Origin: Capitulum mitella
Lineage: Eukaryota > Arthropoda > Thecostraca > Pollicipedomorpha > Pollicipedidae
Direction: 5' to 3'
Length of the DNA stretch: 64,000 bases
NCBI GenBank assembly: GCA_030062745.1
Contig: CP099846.1
Location: forward strand, 28,045,201 to 28,109,200
The notes under the pieces were generated by a model that was given only the letters and a program-made list of their open reading frames with translations, made no database searches and was not told the DNA's origin. Every line of letters starts with the position of its first letter. Position 1 is the stretch's first letter. Of the stretch, positions 18,601 to 64,000 are shown piece by piece. The position numbers and the translations under genes are program-made.

Positions 18601-18999
18601 GGTACTTCCATCACTTATGCCCGAATGACATCGCCTAATTGTGTTCAAACAGCAGTCTTAAGTAGAACGCCAGTTCTTTCACAAAGTTCCCATTTGTCAG
18701 CAACAACCGTCGTTTTGGTGATGTTTGTCTGACTTCAAATGCTTGAAACTTCAAAATTTTCGGCTGATTTCCAATTTTTCTACGCCATTCGACGAGTTAT
18801 TCAATTGCCATAAATGTCACAAAGTAACAGCAACCAGCTCAGATGCATTCTCGAGATATTCAAGAAGAGCAGGTGGGAGGCACAAAAAGATCCCCATTCC
18901 AGTGCGCGTGTTAAAAGACAGCTGTAGCTGATTCGAGCTGTAAAAACAACGGGTGTCATAACGCGTTCCGGCTGAAAGGTTTGGAATCTCCAGAACGTA

Positions 19000-19686
19000 C
19001 GTGACAAGAAAATATTGGTGGCAAACAAGGTTCGGTGCCGAAAGAGCAAGAGGTCACCCCAGGTTACCCAAAAACAAGAGGTCGCCCAAAAGACCCGCAT
19101 CCGGAAACTGTCCCGCGGATCACATGAAATCGGGAAGAACGGGGCATTGCCATGGACGACGAAAGCTACTTCACCTACCACGAGAGGTATATGTCAGGAA
19201 ACCTTGGGTACTCTGTTGGAGCACGTCCAGCAGAAGTCCAGCAGAAGTACAACTGAGGCCCGAGAGCAAGTTTCCCCGCAATCTTTTCGTGTGGCCCGCC
19301 ATCTCTCTCAGGGGTGTGACAAAGCCGGCTATCATGCCGGGTATGGGTAATGTTGATGGTAACGTGTATCGTGAGAAGTGTGTAGGAGATGTGCTCATCC
19401 GATATTTGTATGAGGATTGTTTCGAGAGGGACATGTTGATCTGGCCAGACTTGGCCAGCGCTCATTATGCGAAGAAAACGCTCAAGTTGCTGGAAGAGGC
19501 CAGTGTGCCGTATGTAGTGCGTGACAGCAGTCCCCCTGTGTGCACCAGGTGTGTCCTACTGAGGACATCTGGGGCATCATTAAGCAGAGGATGTATCAGG
19601 GAGACTGGTACGTAACATCCAAAGTCGCCCTAAAGCGCTGGATGAGCCAGGTGGTCGCTGCTCTGGACCTAAAGATACCGCGTTAA
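19000..19686 (+). pseudogene. Mariner-family transposase, frameshifted relic
   Basis: Pieces of a Tc1/mariner DDE transposase appear in shifting frames: a basic segment with QKTRIRKLSRGS near 19080, MDDESYFTYHERYMSGN from 19152, KFPRNLFVWPAISLRGV and IMPGMGNVDGNVYREKC, then LIWPDLASAHYAKKTLKLLE up to about 19520. After a further frameshift near 19540 it continues PTEDIWGIIKQRMYQGDWYV and ends at a stop at 19684. The motifs DDE(S/T)YF, WPDLASAHYA and EDxWGxxKQ hold the three catalytic acidic positions. At least two frame changes and internal stops make it inactive. A weak 3' remnant may extend to about 19850. It lies inside the hAT-type element, so it is either a nested insertion or captured sequence. 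The helix-turn-helix N-terminus is not recognisable. Confidence 0.85.
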
Positions 19687-37701: not shown

Positions 37702-37842
37702 AGCCCCCGCCGTGGGACCGGCTGACCAGCACTCTTCGGGAGCGGCCAGACCTGCTCGAACGATTCATCATGGAGCACGTGGAGCTGGACCAGCTCGAAC
37801 GATGGATCATCAGGAAAACACAGCGCGCCAAAAACTCCCAGG
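37702..37842 (+). CDS. PDE10A: PDE10-type phosphodiesterase, N-terminal exon (partial gene)
   Basis: The frame from 37704 reads WDRLTSTLRERPDLLERF, then IMEHVELDQLERWIIRKTQ, then RAKNSQG. This matches the N-terminal helical segment of PDE10 proteins, where a residue run of the type HPxxLxxFVxxxVxxxxxExWL precedes GAF-A (family knowledge). The exon ends at 37842 before GTAGGT, leaving one base of a split codon (phase 1). The 5' border is uncertain: an in-frame stop at 37689 sets the limit, and acceptor AGs end at 37701 or 37729; neither has a good pyrimidine tract. No in-frame ATG precedes the conserved part, so the start codon lies in an upstream exon that I did not find. The next exon in phase is the 38-nt one at 43931. 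Confidence 0.78.
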
Positions 37843-38326
37843 GTAGGTCTGGTGCACGTTGTTGGGCGCCACGGTTCAGTGCGGGCTAACAGGCGGTACG
37901 TCGGCGAACGGAGACATGTAGGTGACTGCTGCTGTTCGGTGACGCGCCTGTACCGGCGCGTGAGTTTTTATTCGCGGATGCTCCGACCGAAGTTTCCGAA
38001 CTCCTTTTCTCTTCGCTGGCCATTGTCCCACGACTGACGCAAAAGAGCTGCCCGTCGGAATCACCCCCCTTCCCCCAAAAAAACGCATAGTATCGAAGGC
38101 AGACACCTGGTGTCCATGGAGTTGGGCCCGCCTTCCGTCCCGTCCACACAACGTATGCGACGATCACACAGACGACATCGGCCGAGCTATGGCCGGCGGC
38201 TCCCCAGCGGCCTTACACAGTGGCGATCGGGCCCCGCAGAATGGGCTTAGCGTGCTGCGAAACGGCGCATGCACGCGCTGACCAACGAACCTCCGGACAT
38301 ACGAACAACGCGTTTGTGAGCGATTG

Positions 38327-42542: not shown

Positions 42543-43930
42543 CATGGAAGGTCTTCTACGTCTGTGTCAAAGAATACGTCATACGTTATGGGCTGTTATA
42601 AAGCTGCAGGCTCAATGCTGAAATAGGTTGGTCAATCAAAAAGAGCTTGGAAAAATCGCAGTGTAGTCGAGAAAGTGCAGAGTCACGCAGGCTTGCTAAG
42701 CAGCATATGATTATCTTTTTTATTGTGCGTCTCGTCGAATTCGAAAAGAATCGGGAGATACCAGAGGAACTGAGCTTTGTTCAAAGATCATCTGCCGCAG
42801 GTGCTCCCTCCGATCATTGTCGTTGCCAGCACGTGAACTCGCGTTAGGGGAATCTTTCGCCTTAATGCCTGTATTGTACAGATGACCAAGTTAGAGCTTG
42901 GAGTCTTAGAAGCCAGTGTGTTACATACAAGACAGGTCATTACATCTGCACTCACGAAAATCTGAGTCGATTTCTCACAGTTCTTCCGTATATACGGCCT
43001 GCGAAGGCCGTATTGCATCATATTGGCGGATGAGGATCATAGATGATTCCTTTTTTTAAGGTTCCGAACGTTCTCCTGAATTGTGAGAACGAATTCCTGA
43101 AAAATGGGCATTGAAAACGTCATCAGCACCATTTTACAGCCTAACCAAGTCTGTTTATGAAAATTCGGTAAAGATGGAATATGTAAAATTGAGGCTTAAA
43201 ACTCGCAGAGCCTCAAACGCCTCAGGAAATGTCGTTCTAAGGTTACGTAGCTAGCTGAAGTAAATTCTTAACTTAAACTGTACCAAGGCTGGTTTTCTGA
43301 ACTCTCTCCCATAATATTTTCAAATGATGCGTAGCAAGTAGCTCACCGGACGACTGACTGCGGGGCTCAGTTTCCGCTATTCATAAATTACAACAGCCCC
43401 AACGTTAAATGCGTCACACGGATACATATGTCAGTTTAGCTCCATACTCAGCACACTGGCCGACTGTTCGGAACATCCTGCTCGTTCTGATGTGTACTCA
43501 TCGTGGTCAATTCAGAGTGACTTGAGTGAAGGAATTTGTAGTAATAGCTTACGTGATACGTTTCGGGACATTTTTTTTTTTTTTTGTTACGTACCGCCTT
43601 GGTTTTCTTCACTGGTCTGTAATGTGAACAGAAAAGTTTAATGCGTAATTTGACCGTAAAGGATTGACATTTTTGTCATGGCTCTGTTATTTCCTGAGGC
43701 CCTTTAGGAAGTACAGAAGAATCGGGGTCAGTGTCTTTCTTTGAACAATGACTCCGATGTTTTGACATTACATGGTGGTTTACGGAGGATGTGCTTCTGA
43801 AGTGATCTTTGGTGATAAATAGGTGGTAAAATGCTTCCAAGATATCGCTCTTCCTCCATGTGATGCATCCATTGCTTGTGTTTTGTGTTTGCTGCTTTGC
43901 TTCTCACGTAACACATTCATTATGTTTTAG
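42543..43930. other. Intronic, nothing recognised before the microexon
   Basis: A T-run lies at 43570-43585. It is otherwise unique sequence in the loop of the inverted family B pair. Confidence 0.45.
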
Positions 43931-43968
43931 GTTCTGCAACGCGGAAAACAAGCCTATCACGCTGGAAG
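43931..43968 (+). CDS. PDE10A: PDE10-type phosphodiesterase, 38-nt microexon
   Basis: Thirty-eight bases lie between a strong acceptor (T-rich tract ending TATGTTTTAG) and a near-consensus donor (GGAAG|GTACGT). Joined to the phase-1 end of the N-terminal exon it reads G-SATRKTSLSRWK and leaves in phase 0, exactly the phase needed by the GAF-A exon. Without it the two long exons are out of frame: a direct join hits a stop within four codons. The residues SLSRWK align with the SRYQ region just before GAF-A in vertebrate PDE10A. RKTS is a basic-directed S/T site of the PKA type (inference only). The exon lies in the 1.7 kb loop between two inverted TTAA elements. RNA evidence is lacking, so this rests on phase and splice-site quality. 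Confidence 0.7.
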
Positions 43969-44202
43969 GTACGTGCTGTCTCAAAGTGCAATTTCTACGA
44001 TCTTGGATTTTTCATCAGCCGACTCGTTCACGTTTGTGTGGCCGGCCCAGACAGAAATTCCAGAAGGAAGCGAGTCGGTTTTCCATGCATGCCCCTTTCG
44101 AGCAAAATGAAGCGCGTAACGCTGCTAAAAAATGGCGGATTTCCCGCGTAATTCTGGATCTCCCACATGCCAGTGTTTGGCGTCGCTCAGCAGAAAACGG
44201 GG

Positions 44203-45413
44203 TTAACCCGTTTTCTCCCGGCAAGGAGGTTGAATCCGCCTCCCTCGAGTTTTTTCTTTGCCAATTCCTTGGTTTTTGACGCAACTTCACGAAACTTGGC
44301 GAATTTTCCTTACTACTCTTTCTACGCGTTGTAAAAAAATTTCGTAATTTTATTTTTCTCAGGGGCAGAGCCAGGCAAAGTTTTGGGGAGGCAACCGCAG
44401 AGCATTTTTGGCCCTGTTGAAGATGAAAGGAAAATGTTTGCCAAAAATAGATATTTTAAGATAAAACTTAAAACCTTATATTGATATATAGATAAATCTT
44501 GGGCAGCATACAGATGTAATTTTGCTTATCTGAGGTCATTTCACAAGATCGGGTCAAGGTCAAAATATAAAATTGTTTTCATAGTAATTGCTTTGCCGCT
44601 ATTTTTTCAAATGCCGAAATCGGAATCTACGTGACGTAGAAGGGTGCCTTCTACTTGAGTGCCAAATTTCAGATTGATATCAGGTTGGGTCAAGGAGCTA
44701 TGATCTAAAATGTCAGTGCGCGTACCCTACATCACAACAGCCGTAAAATTGAATTTTAGAAAGAGTGAATTCAAATGACTGGGAGCGTTTTCAAATAATG
44801 TGAAATGCACATTAGATCATTCCAAGTGAATCTAAAGTCAGCTGACGTCATTTTGGGCCAAAGGTCGTAGGTTGACCTGAAGAACATGTAACCATGACAG
44901 TTCCTCTTTTCCATGTCCCTGGCACCGCCTATGCTAACATTACGCAAACATTGCAATCTGATTTGCACTTCTTCAGCATAACATGACAAGTAGAAGCTAA
45001 AGAAATGTTTTTAACTTTCTTCTTAATTCAGTTTTTGAGGAACTAATCTTACCATTTTTGAAACCCTGTGAACGCCTATGAATTTGCTCAAAATTTCAAT
45101 TGTATGGATCAATGGTAAAAGTCACATCCATAATCTCTCGATTCATGCCAATTTCATCAAAATTGGTCCATAAACACTGGAGTTACAACAAGTCGAAAAA
45201 TATCCTTATTTTGATTTTTTGCCCCCGCCCTCATTCATCCCTTCCAAAATTTTGGGAACTTCTTCTTATAAAAGTGTATTTTACGACATGGCAAATCGAT
45301 TTCTGTTTGTTGCGATGAAATCGGATGAGCAGTTCTCGAGATCTCGGGGGGGGGGGCCGAATCCCCCTGCCTGGAATCGACCATACCGTCTAGCCCTCGG
45401 GGAATAGGGTTAA
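44203..45413 (-). mobile_element. TTAA-flanked piggyBac-like MITE, family B copy 2 (inverted)
   Basis: A diverged reverse copy of 41265-42476. TTAA occurs at 44203 and 45410; the right end reads inward as CCCTATTCCCCGAGGGCTAG and keeps the 40-base offset to CAGGGGG. The left end is eroded (CCCGTTTTCTCCCGGCAAGG). It contains one TGACGTCA at 44843, absent from copy 1. With copy 1 it forms a 1.2 kb inverted pair whose loop holds the 38-nt microexon. Confidence 0.78.
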
Positions 45414-53400: not shown

Positions 53401-54375
53401 ACGTCCAGTCCTGTCGGTGTAGTATGGTTGTATTTCACAATCACAAATTATGCAACTGGAAGAAGAGTGGACTGTTTTAAAGTGGTGACAATGGACGTTT
53501 TGCCTGTTCCGGCACCGGGCAATAATACACATTTAAATTAAAGAAGGCTGACGGAATTTATTTGTGGACAACACTATGTGATTGTTGTCAACAACAACAG
53601 CAGCGGTAAATGGTACAGACACAAAACACTTCTGACGAATACAGTTCAAACGGTTTAGCTTTAGTGGCACAAGGGCGAAATTATTACCGTTTTGTAAAGT
53701 TAAAAGTCTAATTTTACGTAAAACCGCGCTATGGTGTCAGACCACCATCTGCTTTGGTCACAATGAAATAAATGAGAGTATAATAAAGAGAAGTTGGTGA
53801 TGCCTTTAGCACTTAAAAAATGGACTTCTCTTTGGAATGTCTTCTTTTTGTCTTGTCTTCTCTTTTGAATCAACAACATTTTCCTTAATGCTGCCATCAT
53901 CAAGAGCGTTATTTTTCACGCTACTTATTAATGCACTGCTAACTATTAATGCACTAACTGCTGTTAATATTAAAACCATGAAACCTATCACGCCACAAGC
54001 ATTCAGAAAACCATATTTTCTCCGGAAGTTACACCTCAGAATATTTCGTGTTACTAAAAGGTGCCGCTAATCATACTCCTTTGTTCAAATTTGGTTAGTT
54101 TCAGTGGCTCATCATTTTTGTTTTTAACACGACAGTTTTTAGGTTATCGAGGCGGTCGCCTCCCTTGCACTCGTTATTAGTCCTGGATACTTTGTACTGC
54201 ACCCGATTTTCTCCCCATCTGCCACGTAAAGCAGCGAGCACGCCCCACCGGCGTTCATCCAGGGCTGCGTCGGGGGTCGGAGGGCGACTCTCCTGTCATG
54301 CATCCCCCCCCCACGCAGCCCGCGCGACCCCGTACACAGAACATGCCCTGACCCGTCCCCAACGCACTCTTCCAG
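50481..54375. other. Intronic, GC-rich 50.6-52.3 kb stretch, nothing recognised
   Basis: Open frames up to 216 codons (51806-52456) occur on both strands in GC-rich sequence and match no family. A TGACGTCA lies at 51065. 52.4-54.1 kb is AT-richer and empty. Confidence 0.4.
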
Positions 54376-54414
54376 CACAAGACTGAATCTGAGACTGAGA
54401 CGCTCTCGCCGCAG

Positions 54415-54741
54415 TTCTGCGTCCACGCCGACAAGCGCAAAATGCTCGAGGAGCTGACACGCGCGCTGCCCGAGAAGCCGGGCATGGCCAACGTTCTGAC
54501 AGAGCTGGCCGGCTGCATAGCGTCCGCGGTCAACGCAGACTTTCAGAGACTGTACCTGGTCGAGCAGCGCAACGGCCACGTGCACAGCTACGACCCGGAC
54601 ACGCAGCAGGTGACCAGCACGTACCCGATCGGGCCCGGCACCGTGCTGGCCGCGTACGTGGCCGCCACCCGGCAGTTGCTGCGGACCAGCGCACCCTTCC
54701 TGGACGCCGACAAGTACCCGGAGGGGGTCGGCACGCCCGTG
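54415..54741 (+). CDS. PDE10A: PDE10-type phosphodiesterase, GAF-A exon (first half)
   Basis: Reads FCVHADKRKMLEELTRALP, then a GAF fold start with ELAGCIASAVNADFQRLYLV, and GPGTVLAAYVAATRQLLRTS before DADKYPEGVGTPV. The spacing and the GTxxxAYVAxxR...D.R(Y/F)P.G.G pattern match GAF-A of PDE10. The donor is CCCGTG|GTGAGC at 54741 in phase 0. Two acceptors keep the frame: CGCCGCAG ending at 54414, which gives the junction SRWK-FCVHADKR and is chosen because it aligns better with PDE10 proteins, or CTCTTCCAG ending at 54375, which has the better pyrimidine tract and adds 13 residues (HKTESETETLSPQ). An in-frame stop at 54349 bounds the exon upstream. The exon is GC-rich compared with its surroundings. 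Confidence 0.87.
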
Positions 54742-55650
54742 GTGAGCGCTTGCCGTGTCCGTTATTGTGTCTGCGCTGGTCTCCGGCTCCAACTTGTCTG
54801 TCTGTCTGTCTGTCTTCCTCCCTCTCTCCCTCTCTCCCCCTTTTTCTCTCCCCATTTCGTGAAACACTACAATGTCGAGAGCGTCCTCGGTGAATTGGTT
54901 CTTGGGCCCCATCTAAAATTTGCATCCAATTTGAATAGAATACATTGACGCGCTGTTATTCCCTGGCGTGATCAGGACTAAATGTGGTTGGTTAGCAGCG
55001 CGCCCGTTGACCTTGTTTCGAACTCGAGAGGCATGACTTATCATACCACACAATCTTCACTTCCTATGAACCTTTTGGATCTTGAAGAATAATCCACTCA
55101 GAAGCATCGACCGACGTATCCCCGGCGACCACGTCTGACTCGGTATTGTTTCGACTGAGTCAAACAACGGCAGCGGACGGAACCAGGAGGCCATTCGTCC
55201 CTCTGCATCTGGTCCTGTCGCCCGAGCTCGCCCTCATCTCAATGGAAACGTTTATTTTTGCTAAACAAACTAACTAGATAAAAATGGCCTCGTTCATCTC
55301 CCATATTCCCGACACTATCAGGAAAAAATTGCCTGAAGGCAGTCATTACCGCAGATGGTCTGTCGCTGGGATGCGGACTTGTGAACAAAGGCACGTTTCC
55401 TACAGCTTCTTAGCAAAAAAAAAAAAAAACGGCTTCTCTCGGCACGAAGAGAGCTATTTTTGTTTCCCAATCATGCAGAAATAAAAAGACCGACCACCGT
55501 CAGTCTCAGTCCCACCGCACTTTATATGGGCGCCGCTCACGGCTCATTGGCAGCCGGCAGCGACTGACGTCCTCTAACCAGCGGTCTGATTTACTGATGT
55601 CGGCTTACACCCCTGTTCTGACGTCTCACATCAGGGGCCAGGGCACTTCG

Positions 55651-56047
55651 TGACGAGGATGCTCACGTCCCAGATTTTCACGTGATAGCGGGTCATGACT
55701 CGGATGTTCACGCCATAGCGAGTCATGTACCGGCTTTTTACGCCACAGCGCTTTATGTCCCAAAGGTTCACATCTTAGCGAATTATGCCTGATATGTGCA
55801 CGTCATCGTGGACCATATCACATCGGTCTCCGTCATGGCGGTTAATGTACTGGATGTTCACGTCATAATGAATCGCGCCCTAGATGTTCATGTCGCAGTG
55901 GGTCCTTTACCAAATATTCAGGTCACAGCGGGCCTTGCCCGACTGTTCACGTCACATCGGTCCACGCCCCAGATGTACAAGTCGCCGCAGATCACATCCC
56001 AGGTGCCCATGCCACAGAGCGTGACGTCACGGAAGTGTGTACCGCAG
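55651..56047. repeat. 30-nt minisatellite abutting the GAF-A splice acceptor
   Basis: About 13 units of 30 nt of the form GTTCACGTCAYAGCGRGTCATGYCCCRGAT run without a break into the acceptor at 56047. Because 30 is a multiple of three, one frame stays open from 55796 into the exon with a 10-residue period. Many units contain ACGTCA or CACGTCA, and the last has a perfect TGACGTCA at 56022. Confidence 0.85.
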
Positions 56048-56271
56048 GAGAACGCCGAGCACGTGATGTCGCAGCCGGTGCACCTCTCCGACGGCGAGCT
56101 GGTGGCCATCATGGAGCTGTACCGCACCGGACCGCAGCCCTTCTTCGAGGAGGACGAGGAGATCGTCAACAGCTACATCGTGTGGGGCGGCATCGCGCTC
56201 CACTACGCCGACCTCTACCACACGCTCAGCGACCAGCGCAAGGTCCACGACTTCATCCTGGACGTCACCAA
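56048..56271 (+). CDS. PDE10A: PDE10-type phosphodiesterase, GAF-A exon (second half) and linker
   Basis: Reads ENAEHVMSQPVHLSDGELVA, then IMELYRTGPQPFFEEDEEIV, then NSYIVWGGIALHYADLYHTL, then the linker SDQRKVHDFILDVTK. The strand ELYR, the F..ED/E helix and the closing helix with LHDFLLDVSK-like linker are typical of the end of PDE10 GAF-A. The acceptor is TACCGCAG at 56047, phase 0, and the donor is ACCAA|GTGAGG, phase 2. The open frame continues upstream of the acceptor for more than 80 codons because a 30-nt minisatellite runs right up to it; that part has no GAF homology and is treated as intron. The Lys split across the junction is restored correctly by the next exon. Confidence 0.88.
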
Positions 56272-56869
56272 GTGAGGCGTCCCACGTTTCCCTCCCTTCG
56301 TCCCACCTTGCCCTCCTCCCCCCCCCTCCCTGCGTCGCGAGCGGCTCCCGCCCCGCGAGTCGCGATGCGATACTACACGCTAGGACCTCGCAACCAGCTT
56401 GCTCATCCTTTCCGGACAATGACAGCTATCACGGGATACAGATGACGTGCCCTTTGTTATGCTTGGGACCATTGCCAAGCGATTCAACTTCGGCTTCAGC
56501 TCGGATAGGAATCCCTCAGATCTAACACAGTCACTCGCAAAAAATATGTTTCCGAACACATCTCATTCGTCAAGGCCTCCAAAAACACTCCAGTTACCGC
56601 TGAATGACCAGTATGTTGTGATGGCGATGGTCCGCTCTGCAAATTCCGACACTTTTGCGGTCTGCCTGGCAGAAATAGTTGTTTTTCGAGCACTCCTGTC
56701 GCGCATACGTCAGCCACGACAAGCCCTCCAGAATCCGCGCCCAGAAATTAGACGGCGCTCGCGCACTTCAGCGCCTAGCTAACAACCGCTCCGTCTTGTC
56801 TCCGCAGTCGAGCACCAGTTTCACGAGCCTCTTCCGTTCCTCGACTCTCGGCGAGCGCTCGCAGCAGCG

Positions 56870-57033
56870 CCGGGCCTGTTTGTGGACCCCTCGCCGGGCC
56901 TGTGTGTGGACCCCTCGCCGGGCCTGTGTGTGGACCCCTCGCCGGGCCTGTGTGTGGACCCCTCGCCGGGCCTGTGTGTGGACCCCTCGCCGGGCCTGTG
57001 TGTGGACCCCTCGCCGGGCCTGTGTGTGGACCC
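56870..57033. repeat. 24-nt minisatellite, about 7 units
   Basis: Near-perfect repeats of GTGTGGACCCCTCGCCGGGC plus CTGT. One frame reads RRACVWTP repeatedly. It is intronic, 600 bp after the second GAF-A exon. The very low divergence suggests recent expansion. Confidence 0.9.
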
Positions 57034-57063
57034 CTCCCGGTGGCAGCCGATGACTCCCCGTGC

Positions 57064-57347
57064 CAGGCTTGTGCTTAATTCAGCCCCAGTGAATCGATCC
57101 AGTGCCTAATTTGCTAAGCTGGGAATCGATTCTGGTTCCTATTCACGGCGGGTTATAATTAAAAAATGAATTATTTCAACTATGAATCAATGATAACTGA
57201 ATGGCATCAAGTTTGCGACTCGATTATCATTCTGATTCCGTGCTATTTCAAGTCAATCGATTCTGAACCTGATTTATGGCGAAGTTAGAACATCACTCAA
57301 TCGACTCAGAATCGGTACGAACCGATTCAGAACAACGCCCAAGCCTG
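57064..57347. mobile_element. Small hAT-like MITE in the PDE10 intron
   Basis: Starts CAGGCTTGTGCTTAATTC and ends, inverted, CAGGCTTGGGCGTTGTTC, with several GAATCGATTC-type words near both ends. CAGG tips and a length under 300 bp suit a non-autonomous hAT. The 8-bp flanks CCCCGTGC and CTCCGGAC agree at only some positions, so the duplication is decayed or absent. Confidence 0.6.
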
Positions 57348-57989
57348 CTCCGGACAAACCCGACAACGGCCGGTCCCCGCAGCAGCCCGGCTGAGCCAAA
57401 ACGCCGTCCGCCGAACAACGGGGAGCTGCGCCGCGTGTCTGGCGCCGTTTCGGAGGCCGTTTCAATCATGCGGCGTATCTGACGGGCGTTTCACGGTGTG
57501 ATGTCGCGTGGGACGGTCGTCGCGATTCTCAGCCAAATGTTGCGGTATCAGGTAGCTGGAACGAGCTGAATGGATTTGGGTGTAACTGAAGTGATTAGCA
57601 AGCATTTTGTTATGCTTCATGCTGGCCCGGTTCATATTGTTTTCGTTCAGTTGGTGTTTTTCTTTTGTTTCTCCTAGCATACCTACTTGCCCTTCCTTCC
57701 TTTTGACGACCCTTTTATATCTCTTCCTCTCCCTTCTTCCCGCTATGCCGGCCTGCCCTTTCTTGCTTTTCCTTCTGCCAGACCGACCCGCCTCTGCCCT
57801 TTCTCCCTCTCTCTTTCTTTCCCTCTCTCCCTCTCTCTCCTCTTCTCTTCCCCTCTCTGCCATAGCTCCCCATCCTGCGCCCTGCTTATCTTTGCCGGAG
57901 CTGTCCGCTTCTGCCCTCTTCCTCTGCTGGGGCTGCCCGCCCCCGCCTAGTCCACGACCGACTGAGGTGTTCGTCTCTGCTCTGTCCCT

Positions 57990-58365
57990 CTCTGCCGGAG
58001 CCGCCCCTCCCTTTGCCCTGTCCCTCTCTGCCAGAGCCGCCCCTCCCTCTGGTCCTGTCCCTCTCTGCCAGAGCCTCCAGTCCCTCTGCTCTGTCCCTCT
58101 CTGCCAGAGCCGCCCCTCCCTCTGGTCTATCCCTCTCTGCCAGAGCCTCCAGTCCCTCTGCTCTGTCCCTCTCTGCCAGAGCCGCCCCTCCCTCTGGTCT
58201 ATCCCTCTCTGCCAGAGCCTCCAGTCCCTCTGCCCTGTCCCTCTCTGCCGGAGCCGCCCCTCCCTCTGCTCTGTCCCTCTCTGCCGGAGCCGCCCCTCCC
58301 TCTGGTCTATCCCTCTCTGCCAGAGCCTCCAGTCCCTCTGCTCTGTCCCTCTCTGCCAGAGCCGG
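57990..58365. repeat. 36-nt polypyrimidine minisatellite (72-nt higher-order unit)
   Basis: C/T-rich repeats built on TCCCTCTCTGCCAGAGCC, with two alternating 36-nt types (CGCCCCTCCCTCTGG and TCCAGTCCCTCTGCT). The tract continues a polypyrimidine region that starts near 57660 and ends about 120 bp before the GAF-B acceptor. Its strand asymmetry could favour triplex structure (inference). Confidence 0.85.
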
Positions 58366-58488
58366 CCGCCGGCGGTCGTTTGCCCTGAGGAGATCCGTAT
58401 CCGCGTCGCGTGTTCGGCGGCCGGGCCGAGACGGCCCGGAATAGCCCTGCCGGGGTCGATCTGATCTCGGACGTTTGTATTATTGCAG

Positions 58489-58677
58489 GTCAATATTTCA
58501 AGACATGGTGTCCATGGATACACTCATCACAAAAATAATGAACTTCGCCCAGCGGCTAGTCACCGCCGACCGGGCGTCCCTCTTCCTGATGGACAGCCGC
58601 ACCAAAGAGCTGTACGCCCGCATCTTCGACATGGGCAACACCAACGGCGACGCCAGTCCTCAGGCGCAGGAGATCAG
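58489..58677 (+). CDS. PDE10A: PDE10-type phosphodiesterase, first GAF-B exon
   Basis: After completing the split Lys codon it reads SIFQDMVSMDTLITKIMNFA, then QRLVTADRASLFLMDSRTKE, then LYARIFDMGN and ends at QAQEIR. This is the start of a GAF-B domain: the ADR.SLFL.D strand and KELY..(I/L)FD.G hairpin are diagnostic of PDE10-type GAF-B, the domain that binds the regulatory cyclic nucleotide (cAMP in PDE10, family knowledge). The acceptor is TTATTGCAG at 58488. The donor ATCAG|GTCAGC leaves phase 2, splitting the Arg codon of EIR, as at the corresponding position of the protein family. The next exon, expected to continue with FSIxxGIAG, is not seen before the window ends, so at least 5.3 kb of intron follows. 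Confidence 0.9.
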
Positions 58678-59110
58678 GTCAGCGGCAGACGGCGGGGTGG
58701 TCAGGTCAGGTCAGGCCGGCGACGGATAATGGGGTGTAGATCATGTCAGGTGGCAGGCAGGGGGTGGTCAGCTAAGGTCAGGTGCCTGACAGTGGGATGG
58801 AATTCAGAGTAACGGCAGACGGTGGGGGGGGGGGGGGCAGGTTAGCGGCAGGCATTAAGGAAATCAGTTGAGGCGACGGGTAGTGGGGCGGATATTAGGT
58901 CAGGTGGCAGACAGGGGCAAGATCAGGTCAGCGGCAGACATGGGATGGAGCCCAGGTCACCACCAGACAGTGGGGTGTAGGTCAGGTTAGCGGCAGACAA
59001 AGGGGTGGGGATCAGGTCAGACGATAGACGGTGGGACGGAAGTCAGCTCAGGCAGCAGACAGCGAGGTGGAAACAAGGTCAGGCGGCAGACAACTGGGTT
59101 GAGGTCATGT
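58678..59110. repeat. GGTCAGG/GGCAGACAGTGGGG minisatellite directly after the GAF-B donor
   Basis: Degenerate units of roughly 35-45 nt with the words GGTCAGGTCAGCGGCAGACA and GTGGGGTGGA begin at the donor GTCAGC itself. The donor sequence therefore recurs many times in the repeat, giving several possible GT sites. A run of G at about 58825-58839 is included. Confidence 0.75.
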
Positions 59111-60223
59111 CTGGCATGCATTGGTGTTTCAGTGTTCGTGGAACGCTTCTAACGCAGGCTGCTTATTGGCTTATACGCCAGGTATTACATCCTTCGCAAT
59201 AGTTATGAAAACATTACATCGTAATCTTCTCTTCACATTAGCAAACAGTGATGCATCACATGCCATGTTACACGAAGCCTGCTTGGTAATATGTGAGCCG
59301 CATGAATAATGTAGAAACGTACTATAGTAAATGAGTAAAAGAAATACAAGCATGCTTCATTTCATGCACATTGGGTAAAAACAGCTCGTTTGATACCACT
59401 GCACGATTCCAGTGACATTCAAAAGATGTGTTGACAGGAATAACTGAAGAACTGACACGGCCGGTAGATCGTCGCATCGCACTGGGGTGTTTTACTGAGG
59501 CAAAGGAAGCATTATGGGTTTTGTAACGTGCGAAGCACAGTGGGCAAACGGCCCGGTAATTTAGATGACGGGTCAGATATTTAATCGTCGGGATTTCATT
59601 GACGGCACGCGTGCGGAATGTGTTGGAGGATGACGAGGGTGATACGACGAACCACCGGACGTGAACACGATGATCGAAGGCAGAGTATAATAGTTTGCTA
59701 CAGCATTGGCCCTTAGAATACGCAACTACTGATCGGATCGGTAGGCACACAAAGAAGCGTGCAGACAGAGACCTGTTTCATCCTAGCTCAAATCAGGGAT
59801 CTCTTCGGCAAAGTGCGCTAACATTTAGGACTGCAGTATATAGCTTTGTCTCTGCTGAGGTCTTCAGCTGTGATGGTAAACGTTTCAGACAGCACAGCAA
59901 ATGTTCATGATAACGTCATTAAATGCCTCATGACTCACATTGCGATGATTTAATGTGGATGGTACATTGGTCCATGGACAGCCACTGGAAAATTATTTCC
60001 GTGAACATTGCATTTGTTCTCGATGATTCCCACTCCCGGACGGAGGGCTGCACAAAGGTTTTCGGCTCAAACCGGGTGCAATTTTTTCGCCATTAGTGTC
60101 CTTTTCTGTATTAGGAAGTTTTAATGTCCGCGGATGCCTTGGTAAGCTGGAAGCTGCAAACTCATTACGGGAACAGAATGAGCGGCGGTACCTGCGGCAG
60201 CCGGCCCCGCTCCAGTCACTCCG
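59111..60223. other. No exon recognised
   Basis: The remaining GAF-B and catalytic exons of the PDE10-type gene were searched for and not found here. Confidence 0.45.
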
Positions 60224-60294
60224 TGACGTCACGCTCGGCCCACCTCGTCCGAACGTGACGTCATGAAATGCCGTCTCCTCGGGGTGTGACGTCA
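60224..60294. promoter_or_regulatory. Cluster of three perfect CRE palindromes
   Basis: TGACGTCA occurs at 60224-60231, 60256-60263 and 60287-60294, with start-to-start spacing of 32 and 31 bp (about three helical turns), in a GC-rich patch at 60170-60360. TGACGTCA is the full binding site of CREB/ATF factors. It lies downstream of the last visible GAF exon, inside the presumed next intron of a cAMP phosphodiesterase gene. Activity is inferred only. Confidence 0.55.
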
Positions 60295-61720
60295 CGGGTG
60301 ACCCCGCGGGTGGCTGCGACGTTGGGTCGGCTCGCCCCGGCTCGACGTGCTCTCCGAGCGGGAAATTATCGATTTCATTTCAGGCGTCGTAGGAACGGGA
60401 GCCGTAGTGGCCATGTTAGCTGGTGGATTTCATTCCTTCTGCTTTTAAGCGTATGAAAAGTCGTCACTGCGTCATTACGCTCATGAAGGTGCTTGCATGC
60501 ACTGGCGCAATTTGTAAGTCATCACACGGGAAAGCAGTCAACCGCATTCCTCGGATGTAATTCCGCATCACCGAAGGACTCTCGAGGACCAACATTGAAA
60601 TTATCCAACTTGTCCTTCGAAGAAATGAGCAAAATGCGCGGATGCCACGGTCTCTTCACCAGTCTCAGCGGAATGTGCCAGTTGTTATTACCACGTTCTG
60701 TTCCACCTTCAACGGTCTGGTCATCTGTCTTGATGGATATGGCATTTTTGATTGCAGTAGGGGAGGCCGCCCAATGGGCGCCACCCTGCCTAATTGCACC
60801 ACCCCCATTATCTCCTAACTGAGGAAGCTGATTGGCAGATAAGGGATATTTTCTGAGACTCGATACCTCCCTTTTCCTCTCTGTCAGCGGTCCAGACGTG
60901 TGGAAGGTCCGTGAAGTTTCAGGGCAAGTTTGAAATAATTTTCTGCCTTGTGTTACCCGTGTATAATTGCGCTATCAATACGGTAAAGCAAAATTCATCC
61001 CATACAGTGCCTCAGTGGTGGAATTACGCTTCCCGTTCGTCCAGAATAGAGATGATACGTCCGCGCGTTTTTATCCGCAGCTAGTTTTGTTATGTTAGAG
61101 CCATTTCCTTTTTTGCCCCACCATTTGGCTGGCCTTATTGCGTCAGTAGCACAATCGGAGCAGGATTAGCTAACGGTGTGCTGATGGTTATTCCAGTGTT
61201 TCGCACGTTTCTGAGATCCATTGAAAGCGATGATCACGGAAGGAGGGGATTTCGACTGCAGAGGCGACACTTCGAGAGTGAGGCAGAAACGTCATCATAG
61301 CCTTCTTGAAAAGGCTCCAGCCTTAGCCTCCCCTTCCCCTCGCGGAGCCCGTTCAGCCACGCCGTCCATTGGCCGCCGAAAGCTAATGTAAAATATCAGT
61401 TTTCTCATTCACCATGTAATCAGCGCACCAGGTCTCGCAGGCAGCCCCAGGCTGAGAAGCCTGGCGACACCCTAGGAACAAGGACCTTCTATCGATCTTG
61501 AGTGTAAATGTGTTTCAGATTTTAGCCAATTCGTTCAGAGGGGATGGCTCGCCGCTGACCGCACTCACTGTGCCCTTAACAGCCAGGTGACCTCGTTGTG
61601 CCCTTCTCCATCGGGGGCTTGACCTGTGTGGGAATTTGCCCCCTAACTGACATGTTAAAATGGACCGTGAAGGGGAAGAATGCACCGTTTTCATGCCTCA
61701 AAACCCTTTTGATTTCGGTG
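60295..61720. other. No exon recognised
   Basis: Short frames only, up to the second hAT-type element. Confidence 0.45.
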
Positions 61721-61728
61721 ATCTTACC

Positions 61729-63739
61729 TAGGGATGCGCCGGATATCCGGTCCGGCCGGATATCCGTCAGGATATTTGAAATTATCCGGTATCCGGTACC
61801 TGGCCGGATATTTCCATGATCCGGCCGGATATTGCCGGATATTTGGCCTTCCGGTTTACGATCGAGACGTTCTTATGTCTGCCCATAAAACCGTTTCAGG
61901 AGCAACGTGCCTTGTTATATAAGACTGCCGATGTGCCTGACGGTTCTAAGGTCTGTCTGGAGCACTACTTTTTCTTCTTAGTTCGGAAGGATTCAGACAT
62001 TATTTGCAAGGGATGGACTCAAGCTCAAAGTAGTGTAACAACAGCCAGCATACGCTCAGCGGACCATTTGGTGGCGAATTGAGAAATTGAAATCTTTCTA
62101 TTTTCCAAACATTTTTATTTTTCTTAAATACTCTTGTACAAATTCATTAACTCTCGCCCGTCAAGGGGGAGGGGGAATGATGCAACCCCGATGAGGTTTT
62201 CCGAGCGTCACGAACTCATGCCATGTGGTCGGCGGGAAACATCTTATTTTTATCTTTTGGAATGCGATAGGAAATAGGTATTGCAAAACAACTTACGTAT
62301 TCGGATTCCACAAATTGCAAAGAAAAAAATGGTGTAAATGTGGTGTGGTTTGTGTTTTGTTTCGCCTAAAGAGAGCGCAATGCAACGAACACTTGACTTT
62401 TGCTCCGACAGGCGGAGCGGCGTCGGCCGCGGCGTGATGAGTCTACAGTACAAGGGCATGCCTAAAATCCGATTTTGTTTTGGATTCTATTCGAAAAACG
62501 CTCTAAAGATATCTAAGTTACGATTCTCGGCTAAATCCAGGTCACCATAGGTCATTGACTTCAGATGACTTTGGATAACCTAAGATGATCCTGATGTTAT
62601 TTGACAATAGTGTTTGTTAATTGAGATGCTGCTTTTGACTTCAGTATCTATTATTGTCTACAAAAAATGTTTTTGCAGCTCCGAGAACGCATTTAAGCCG
62701 ACGACCCCGCTTGACAAGGATTGGCCTAACATGACCTGGATCGGACTCCAGGGGTGAAATTCAATGCTGTGGTGTACAGACAGACTCATAATTGACTGAC
62801 GAACACGATGATATCCGTTTCGTTTCATTATCATGTATTCTTTCACTTTGATTTGCACTTAAACTCAGGAAGTACCACTTTCTGCCAATTTTTGACATTT
62901 GATCCGATCTGGAAGATCATCCGTTGATATCGGACATTAAAAAGGGATGCCAGTCGTGAGATCTCGTCACGTGCAACACGCTAGCTTTTCCGCGACGCTC
63001 TAGGACGCAAGGTGTTGAAATGGCTGGGGGGTCGTACCAACTTCCCTCCCCCCCTTTACGTCCGCCTTATGCAGAAGGCCCTATACGGGCAAGTTTTAAG
63101 GGCATCGGCTCAACCAAGATTGGCCTCGGGGCCCGGGCTTGCTTCTTAGGCCCGCGTTTTTTTGTGAAAACCATTACACATCGTCTTCCCAGCAGGTGGT
63201 TTTCGTATGATTTCAGTTCACACTGGGCTCCGGGCCCCCTCGTCAAGAAATCCTTGGCTGCTCCCCTGGTTAAGGGGCAATGTACTTCAACGGACATACA
63301 TCAGTACTTGTAAAGAATGGTTATCAAGCCAGGTATTTAAGGTCTGCCAAGGCGTCATAATGGCATTCTGCGCATTTTGGAACCCTTGCCCTTTGCCCTT
63401 TGCCTTCAGTCAGAGATGGTGATCGGTGATCTACACTATAATCGCTGCGTTCTTTATTTATTCTTTTTTTACAGTGAAACATAGGAAACCTCGCAATAAC
63501 TCTTAAACGTTAGGTGGAAGGATTCACAAATTGTTAATATTTTTCTTTTTCGTATTGTCCAGTTTTTCAGACCTTTCTTTACCGCAATCTTTTTCGTCTC
63601 ATTTTCCAGCAAAAATAGCAAACAAAAATAGTTATCCATAATATCCGGTATCCGGCCGGAAATCCGGATATCCGGCACCCCGATCCGGTATATCCGGTAT
63701 CCGGCCGGGTCACAAAAATCCCGATCCGGTGCATCCCTA
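61729..63739. mobile_element. hAT-type non-autonomous element, copy 2, with 8-bp target duplication
   Basis: Ends TAGGGATGCGCCGGATATCC and, inverted, TAGGGATGCACCGGATCGGG are flanked by a perfect 8-bp repeat ATCTTACC at 61721-61728 and 63740-63747. The terminal 250-300 bp on each side are homologous to those of copy 1 but in inverted order. For example, the run with GTCTGC...AAAACCGTTTCAGG near 61875 matches the reverse complement near 20130. At 2.0 kb it is shorter than copy 1 and lacks the mariner relic. No transposase-coding frame was recognised, so mobilisation in trans is inferred. The middle part (62.1-63.4 kb) is unrecognised. Confidence 0.85.
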
Positions 63740-64000
63740 ATCTTACCTCGACATTTAGGAAATACAGGATTATTGTATTTTCCGATTTAAGAGGGGAACA
63801 TTTTCGGATCACAAGAGGGATATGGATCCCAAACCCACTGGATGCGCTTATGTAGCCACCTCCTTGGGGCTGCCCACCATGTTGTCGGGATCTGAACACC
63901 TCTCCCCGCTTGTTTGCGAGAATTTATAACGAGAGTAAAAGTGAAACTTCATAATATATTAGACATAGTTCATTATACCTTTTGCGGCCGCAAAGTACCT

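Follow-up and report, generated by a model that had tools for sequence, protein, structure and literature searches.

The 5' portion of a gene of PDE10 type lies on the plus strand of the window, the 64,000-nt stretch of Capitulum mitella DNA analyzed here. The following exons were placed in the model, the second of which is very probably a real short coding exon:

37702..37842, plus strand: N-terminal coding exon, 141 nt, PDE10/PDE11-type helical N-terminus, ends in phase 1
43931..43968, plus strand: probable 38-nt exon encoding (G)SATRKTSLSRWK, phase 1 to phase 0
54415..54741, plus strand: GAF-A exon, 327 nt, phase 0 to 0, donor gtgagc
56048..56271, plus strand: exon for the end of GAF-A and the linker, 224 nt, phase 0 to 2
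58489..58677, plus strand: exon for the start of GAF-B, 189 nt, phase 2 to 2

Joined together, the five exons give 305 codons without a stop. The 5' boundary of the N-terminal exon is uncertain and its acceptor is weak (score −2.68); its one good donor, AGG/gtaggt, scored 3.92. All splice scores are relative only.

The joined protein matched three Pfam GAF families above their cut-offs, with matches at residues 99–205 and 81–212 that span 54415–54741. Against the PDB, the best of 19 matched sequences was human PDE10A GAF-B (2zmf, E = 8.2e-18, residues 224–290), a structure that covers GAF-B only and is uninformative on the short exon. PDE5A ranked behind it (4e-13), and matches to PDE5, PDE6 and PDE2 chains spanned exon 56048–56271. 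A tblastn search with a PDE10A query found matches at 56057–56272 (E = 1.46e-9) and for exon 58489–58677 (E = 1.54e-11); neither the N-terminal nor the GAF-A exon was matched at E up to 1. A PDE11A query matched the N-terminal exon at E = 0.94. When six-frame segments of at least 15 residues were compared with the N-termini of these proteins, exon 37702–37842 was top of 2664 segments against PDE10A (score 66, next 37; none of 2000 shuffles reached 66) and also top against PDE11A (53, next 39). It showed no match to PDE5A, for which 922 of 2000 shuffles scored equally well.

A search of the PDB with the N-terminal half at E up to 10 returned five sequences, none of them a PDE. The peptide across the 43968/54415 junction, TSLSRWKFCV, resembles TSLPRWKFCV of endothelin-converting enzyme 1 (third PDB row, E = 1.1); this likeness is very probably due to chance and is a warning that RWKFCV could look familiar for other reasons.

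The order of domains is that of the PDE10 family, an N-terminal helix followed by tandem GAF domains, with just the start of GAF-B in the window. The protein is closer to PDE10 than to other GAF phosphodiesterases, a placement that comes from GAF-B, with PDE11 GAF-B absent from the matched chains. Further downstream, at 58678–64000 on the plus strand (5.3 kb), no convincing match to the rest of GAF-B or to the catalytic domain was found; the best local score was 39, with no significance test attached. Searches for homologous loci gave seven pattern matches for the GAF-A exon in viral contigs and 17 for the joined protein in genome contigs, none of which was confirmed; neither collection is intended for animals.

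Two tandem arrays were found between the exons ending at 56271 and starting at 58489, one at 56868–57040 (24-nt unit, 7.2 copies, 98% matches) and one at 57975–58364 (36-nt unit, 10.8 copies, 86% matches). By eye, an ORF at 18962–19615 resembles a Tc1/mariner transposase remnant; Pfam, searched up to E = 0.1, gave nothing for it. No Rfam family or tRNA was detected in the window, nor any direct repeat at 43800–44300.

The N-terminal exon ends in phase 1 and the GAF-A exon begins in phase 0, and the claim of the initial annotation that they cannot be joined directly held among the sites examined. All eight AGs between the in-frame stop at 54349 and position 54475 would open the GAF-A exon in phase 0. 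On the donor side, surveyed from 37760 to the stop at 37887, one of eight GTs was in phase 0; it lies at 37778, within the N-terminal helix, and scored −3.08. If a single mRNA contains both exons, they must be bridged by a segment 3n+2 nt long, or by several that sum to 3n+2. The GAF-A exon also has a second acceptor, cttccag/CACAAG, which scored 0.58 versus −0.05 for the one used; its use would bring in 54376–54414 and lengthen the protein by 13 in-frame residues, HKTESETETLSPQ, ahead of GAF-A, and it is a possible alternative 3' splice site.

The segment at 43931–43968 lies between the two exons, has the length 3n+2 (38 nt) and is free of stops. It is bounded by the acceptor ttttag/G and the donor AAG/gtacgt. 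Its coordinates, splice dinucleotides, phases and peptide were all confirmed on re-examination. The acceptor scored 2.96, the second best among the five exons of the model. We infer that the segment is included in the mRNA, is used constitutively and is orthologous to a mammalian exon described below.

Candidate bridges were defined as open AG...GT segments of 15–90 nt that run from phase 1 to phase 0 in the interval between the two exons, and 720 were found. By summed splice score, 43931–43968 was second (8.1), and it was the sole candidate with both sites this strong, in agreement with the strong acceptor and donor first noted for it. When the length limit was widened to 300 nt, 1117 segments were obtained and the same two stood at or above this sum. 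In dinucleotide-shuffled introns, a segment with both sites as strong occurred in 10 of 200 and one with a sum as high in 51 of 200. Six slices of the window served as controls: the intron's reverse complement, two plus-strand slices and three minus-strand slices, these three overlapping the reverse complement. None held a segment with both sites as strong, and one held a sum as high. The splice sites of 43931–43968 exceed chance by the strength of both sites taken together and are less special by summed score.

These figures bear on the reading that the bridge is a different exon, or two exons, and that 43931–43968 is a cryptic segment arising by chance. The summed score favors the 83-nt segment 52365–52447 (8.9), and a sum as high as that of the 38-nt segment occurs in 51 of 200 shuffles. 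Third-position GC is 0.50 over the 12 codons of the 38-nt segment versus 0.78–0.99 in the four other exons, which was counted against the exon reading. However, strong sites at both ends occur in the 38-nt segment only, and the 28-residue peptide of the 83-nt segment does not visibly resemble the PDE10 linker, and its length is about threefold that of the mammalian exon's peptide (9–10 residues). A different bridge is unlikely, though it is the most probable of the rivals weighed here.

The main reason for accepting 43931–43968 is that bovine PDE10A has, at the equivalent position, a short exon of length 3n+2. Bovine 5'-RACE clones mapped to the genome show pieces of 130, 29, 121 and 50 nt after variable first exons (PMC4993467, Table 2), although the first piece is given as 129 nt in the X3 row versus 130 in the X5 row and in the genomic span. 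Variant X5 has GGTAT at the end of its first coding exon and a protein that begins MTFCGMARWY (PMC4993467). If GGTAT is taken to complete the W and Y codons, this exon stops at a codon boundary, 130 nt leave phase 1 and 29 nt restore phase 0. The next Met (MQGVVYELNS) is placed 68 residues downstream in PMC4993467, a count that the human PDE10A sequence fits exactly. Read against that sequence, the bovine 29-nt exon would encode (D)ESAPKEVSR, running from phase 1 to phase 0 and ending in SR. The placement of the mammalian SR draws on the human protein sequence and on numbers from PMC4993467, the PDB copy searched having no human PDE10A N-terminus.

Like the bovine exon, 43931–43968 follows the exon of the N-terminal helix, precedes that of GAF-A and is 3n+2 in length; it ends in phase 0, as the bovine exon would, and the bovine peptide would end in SR where the peptide here ends in SRWK. 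Unlike it, the segment is 38 rather than 29 nt long, three codons more, and carries an RKTS that the deduced bovine peptide lacks. The bovine GAF-A region is split into pieces of 121 nt, 50 nt and further pieces, whereas here a single 327-nt exon is found. Apart from the SR near the end, similarity to the deduced mammalian peptide is low. SRWK had been proposed to align with a conserved segment before GAF-A; the SR in common with the deduced bovine peptide speaks for this, but in alignments of the joined protein to human PDE10A 43931–43968 ranked 144 of 720, and 6 of 29 among 38-nt segments, under gap penalties that favor short inserts, a result counted against the segment. SR plus an aromatic residue within the last six residues, a criterion set after the peptide was seen, occurred, whatever the score, in 5 of 720 real segments and in at least one segment in 68% of shuffles; combined with the summed score, it occurred once in the real intron and in none of 200 shuffles.

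The C. elegans PDE-5 exon organization is similar to that of human PDE10A according to the review PMC12346295. Literature searches found no paper for four peptides from the junction and the start of GAF-A, and none on microexon, phosphodiesterase and GAF domain together. In the accessible part of PMC13387927, PDE10A appears in a reference title only, and "pde10" and "pde4" are absent from PMC13281805.

We consider it likely, with good confidence, that 43931–43968 belongs to a PDE10-type GAF phosphodiesterase gene as a short, constitutively used coding exon and is the counterpart of the mammalian 29-nt exon. It would carry the linker joining the N-terminal helical segment to the GAF-A domain, and its inclusion would be required because its 3n+2 length carries the phase-1 end of the N-terminal exon over to the phase 0 in which GAF-A starts.

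A bridge would be unnecessary if the N-terminal and GAF-A exons belonged to different transcripts with alternative first exons. Several alternative N-termini are known for PDE10A, as PMC4872433 and PMC4993467 state. Yet both bovine first-exon variants tabulated in PMC4993467 enter the same 130-29-121 series, and the helix seen here at the N-terminus corresponds to the one that the PDE10A protein sequence assigns to the shared bovine 130-nt exon. Separate transcripts are highly improbable.

The initial annotation had also suggested that skipping the exon would truncate the protein, making it a possible on/off switch. Truncation was not borne out within the window: with the exon skipped, the shifted frame runs without a stop for 293 codons, as far as 58677, and the GAF region would be scrambled. 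That the shifted frame of 54415–58677 is open across three exons is probably a by-product of their high third-position GC. The bovine exon is present in both variants with a tabulated exon series, and the available part of PMC4993467 describes no clone without it. Shorter bovine clones match about 360 nt of shared downstream sequence (PMC4993467), which by our count spans the 29-nt exon. Human striatum RT-PCR over exons 4–22 showed no major splice variants; this range omits exon 3 and gives no direct information on the exon at issue (PMC4872433).

A real exon spliced alternatively as a frame-breaking switch, perhaps specific to neurons, would be favored by six TGC in the upstream 100 nt (mean 2.05), a count reached at 2.4% of positions in the intron and at 1.5% of those anchored on AG; four lie within 60 nt (4.1%). 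One characteristic of exons that depend on eMIC is a UGC in the vicinity of the 3' splice site (PMC8797185). On the other side, no TGC lies closer to the exon than 33 nt, the count within 50 nt is unremarkable (3; 8.6% of positions), and the N-terminal exon likewise has four TGC in its upstream 100 nt. Fly eMIC exons have extremely weak 3' splice sites according to PMC8797185, whereas the acceptor at 43931 outscores those of three of the other four exons in the model. Together with the intact bovine clones and the open shifted frame, this makes a frame-breaking switch quite improbable.

The segment shares with the neuronal eMIC-dependent microexons of PMC8797185 its short length, a long intron and some upstream TGC, but its 3' splice site is not weak. 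Its 38 nt are not divisible by three, and most neuronal microexons preserve the reading frame. The idea of an eMIC-regulated neuronal microexon, for which an extremely weak 3' splice site with UGC nearby is expected, is weakened by the nearest TGC being at 33 nt and the acceptor scoring 2.96; neuronal regulation of 43931–43968 is not claimed.

The peptide of the preferred constitutive exon contains RKTS, which we take to fit the PKA/PKG consensus. It is a predicted kinase site by motif, and a lead; R[RK]x[ST] occurred in 161 of 10,051 open 38-mers of the interval (1.6%). In PDE5A, the TRKISAS segment is phosphorylated by PKG/PKA. This segment lies before GAF-A (PDB 9lss, 3bjc), and five of its seven residues are identical to TRKTSLS here, although PDE5A is a different PDE family and the N-terminal exon here does not match it. 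Conceivably, this lineage gained a PKA/PKG-type site, TRKTSLS, in the short exon, resembling TRKISAS of PDE5A, so that kinases dependent on cyclic nucleotides might tune a PDE10-type enzyme by way of a peptide from one tiny exon; the deduced peptide of the mammalian 29-nt exon has no such site. We regard this as a doubtful, speculative proposal.

Taken with the bovine series, 43931–43968 looks like the counterpart of the PDE10A 29-nt exon, a structural joint of long standing and not a newly arisen on/off switch. Such an exon is easily missed, and gene predictors that overlook it would yield a broken or N-terminally shortened PDE10 model; when genes of this type are annotated, a short 3n+2 exon should be searched for at this point. 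Should this reading hold, an exon that is very short and critical to the frame has retained both position and phases between a mammal and Capitulum mitella despite a differently divided GAF-A region.
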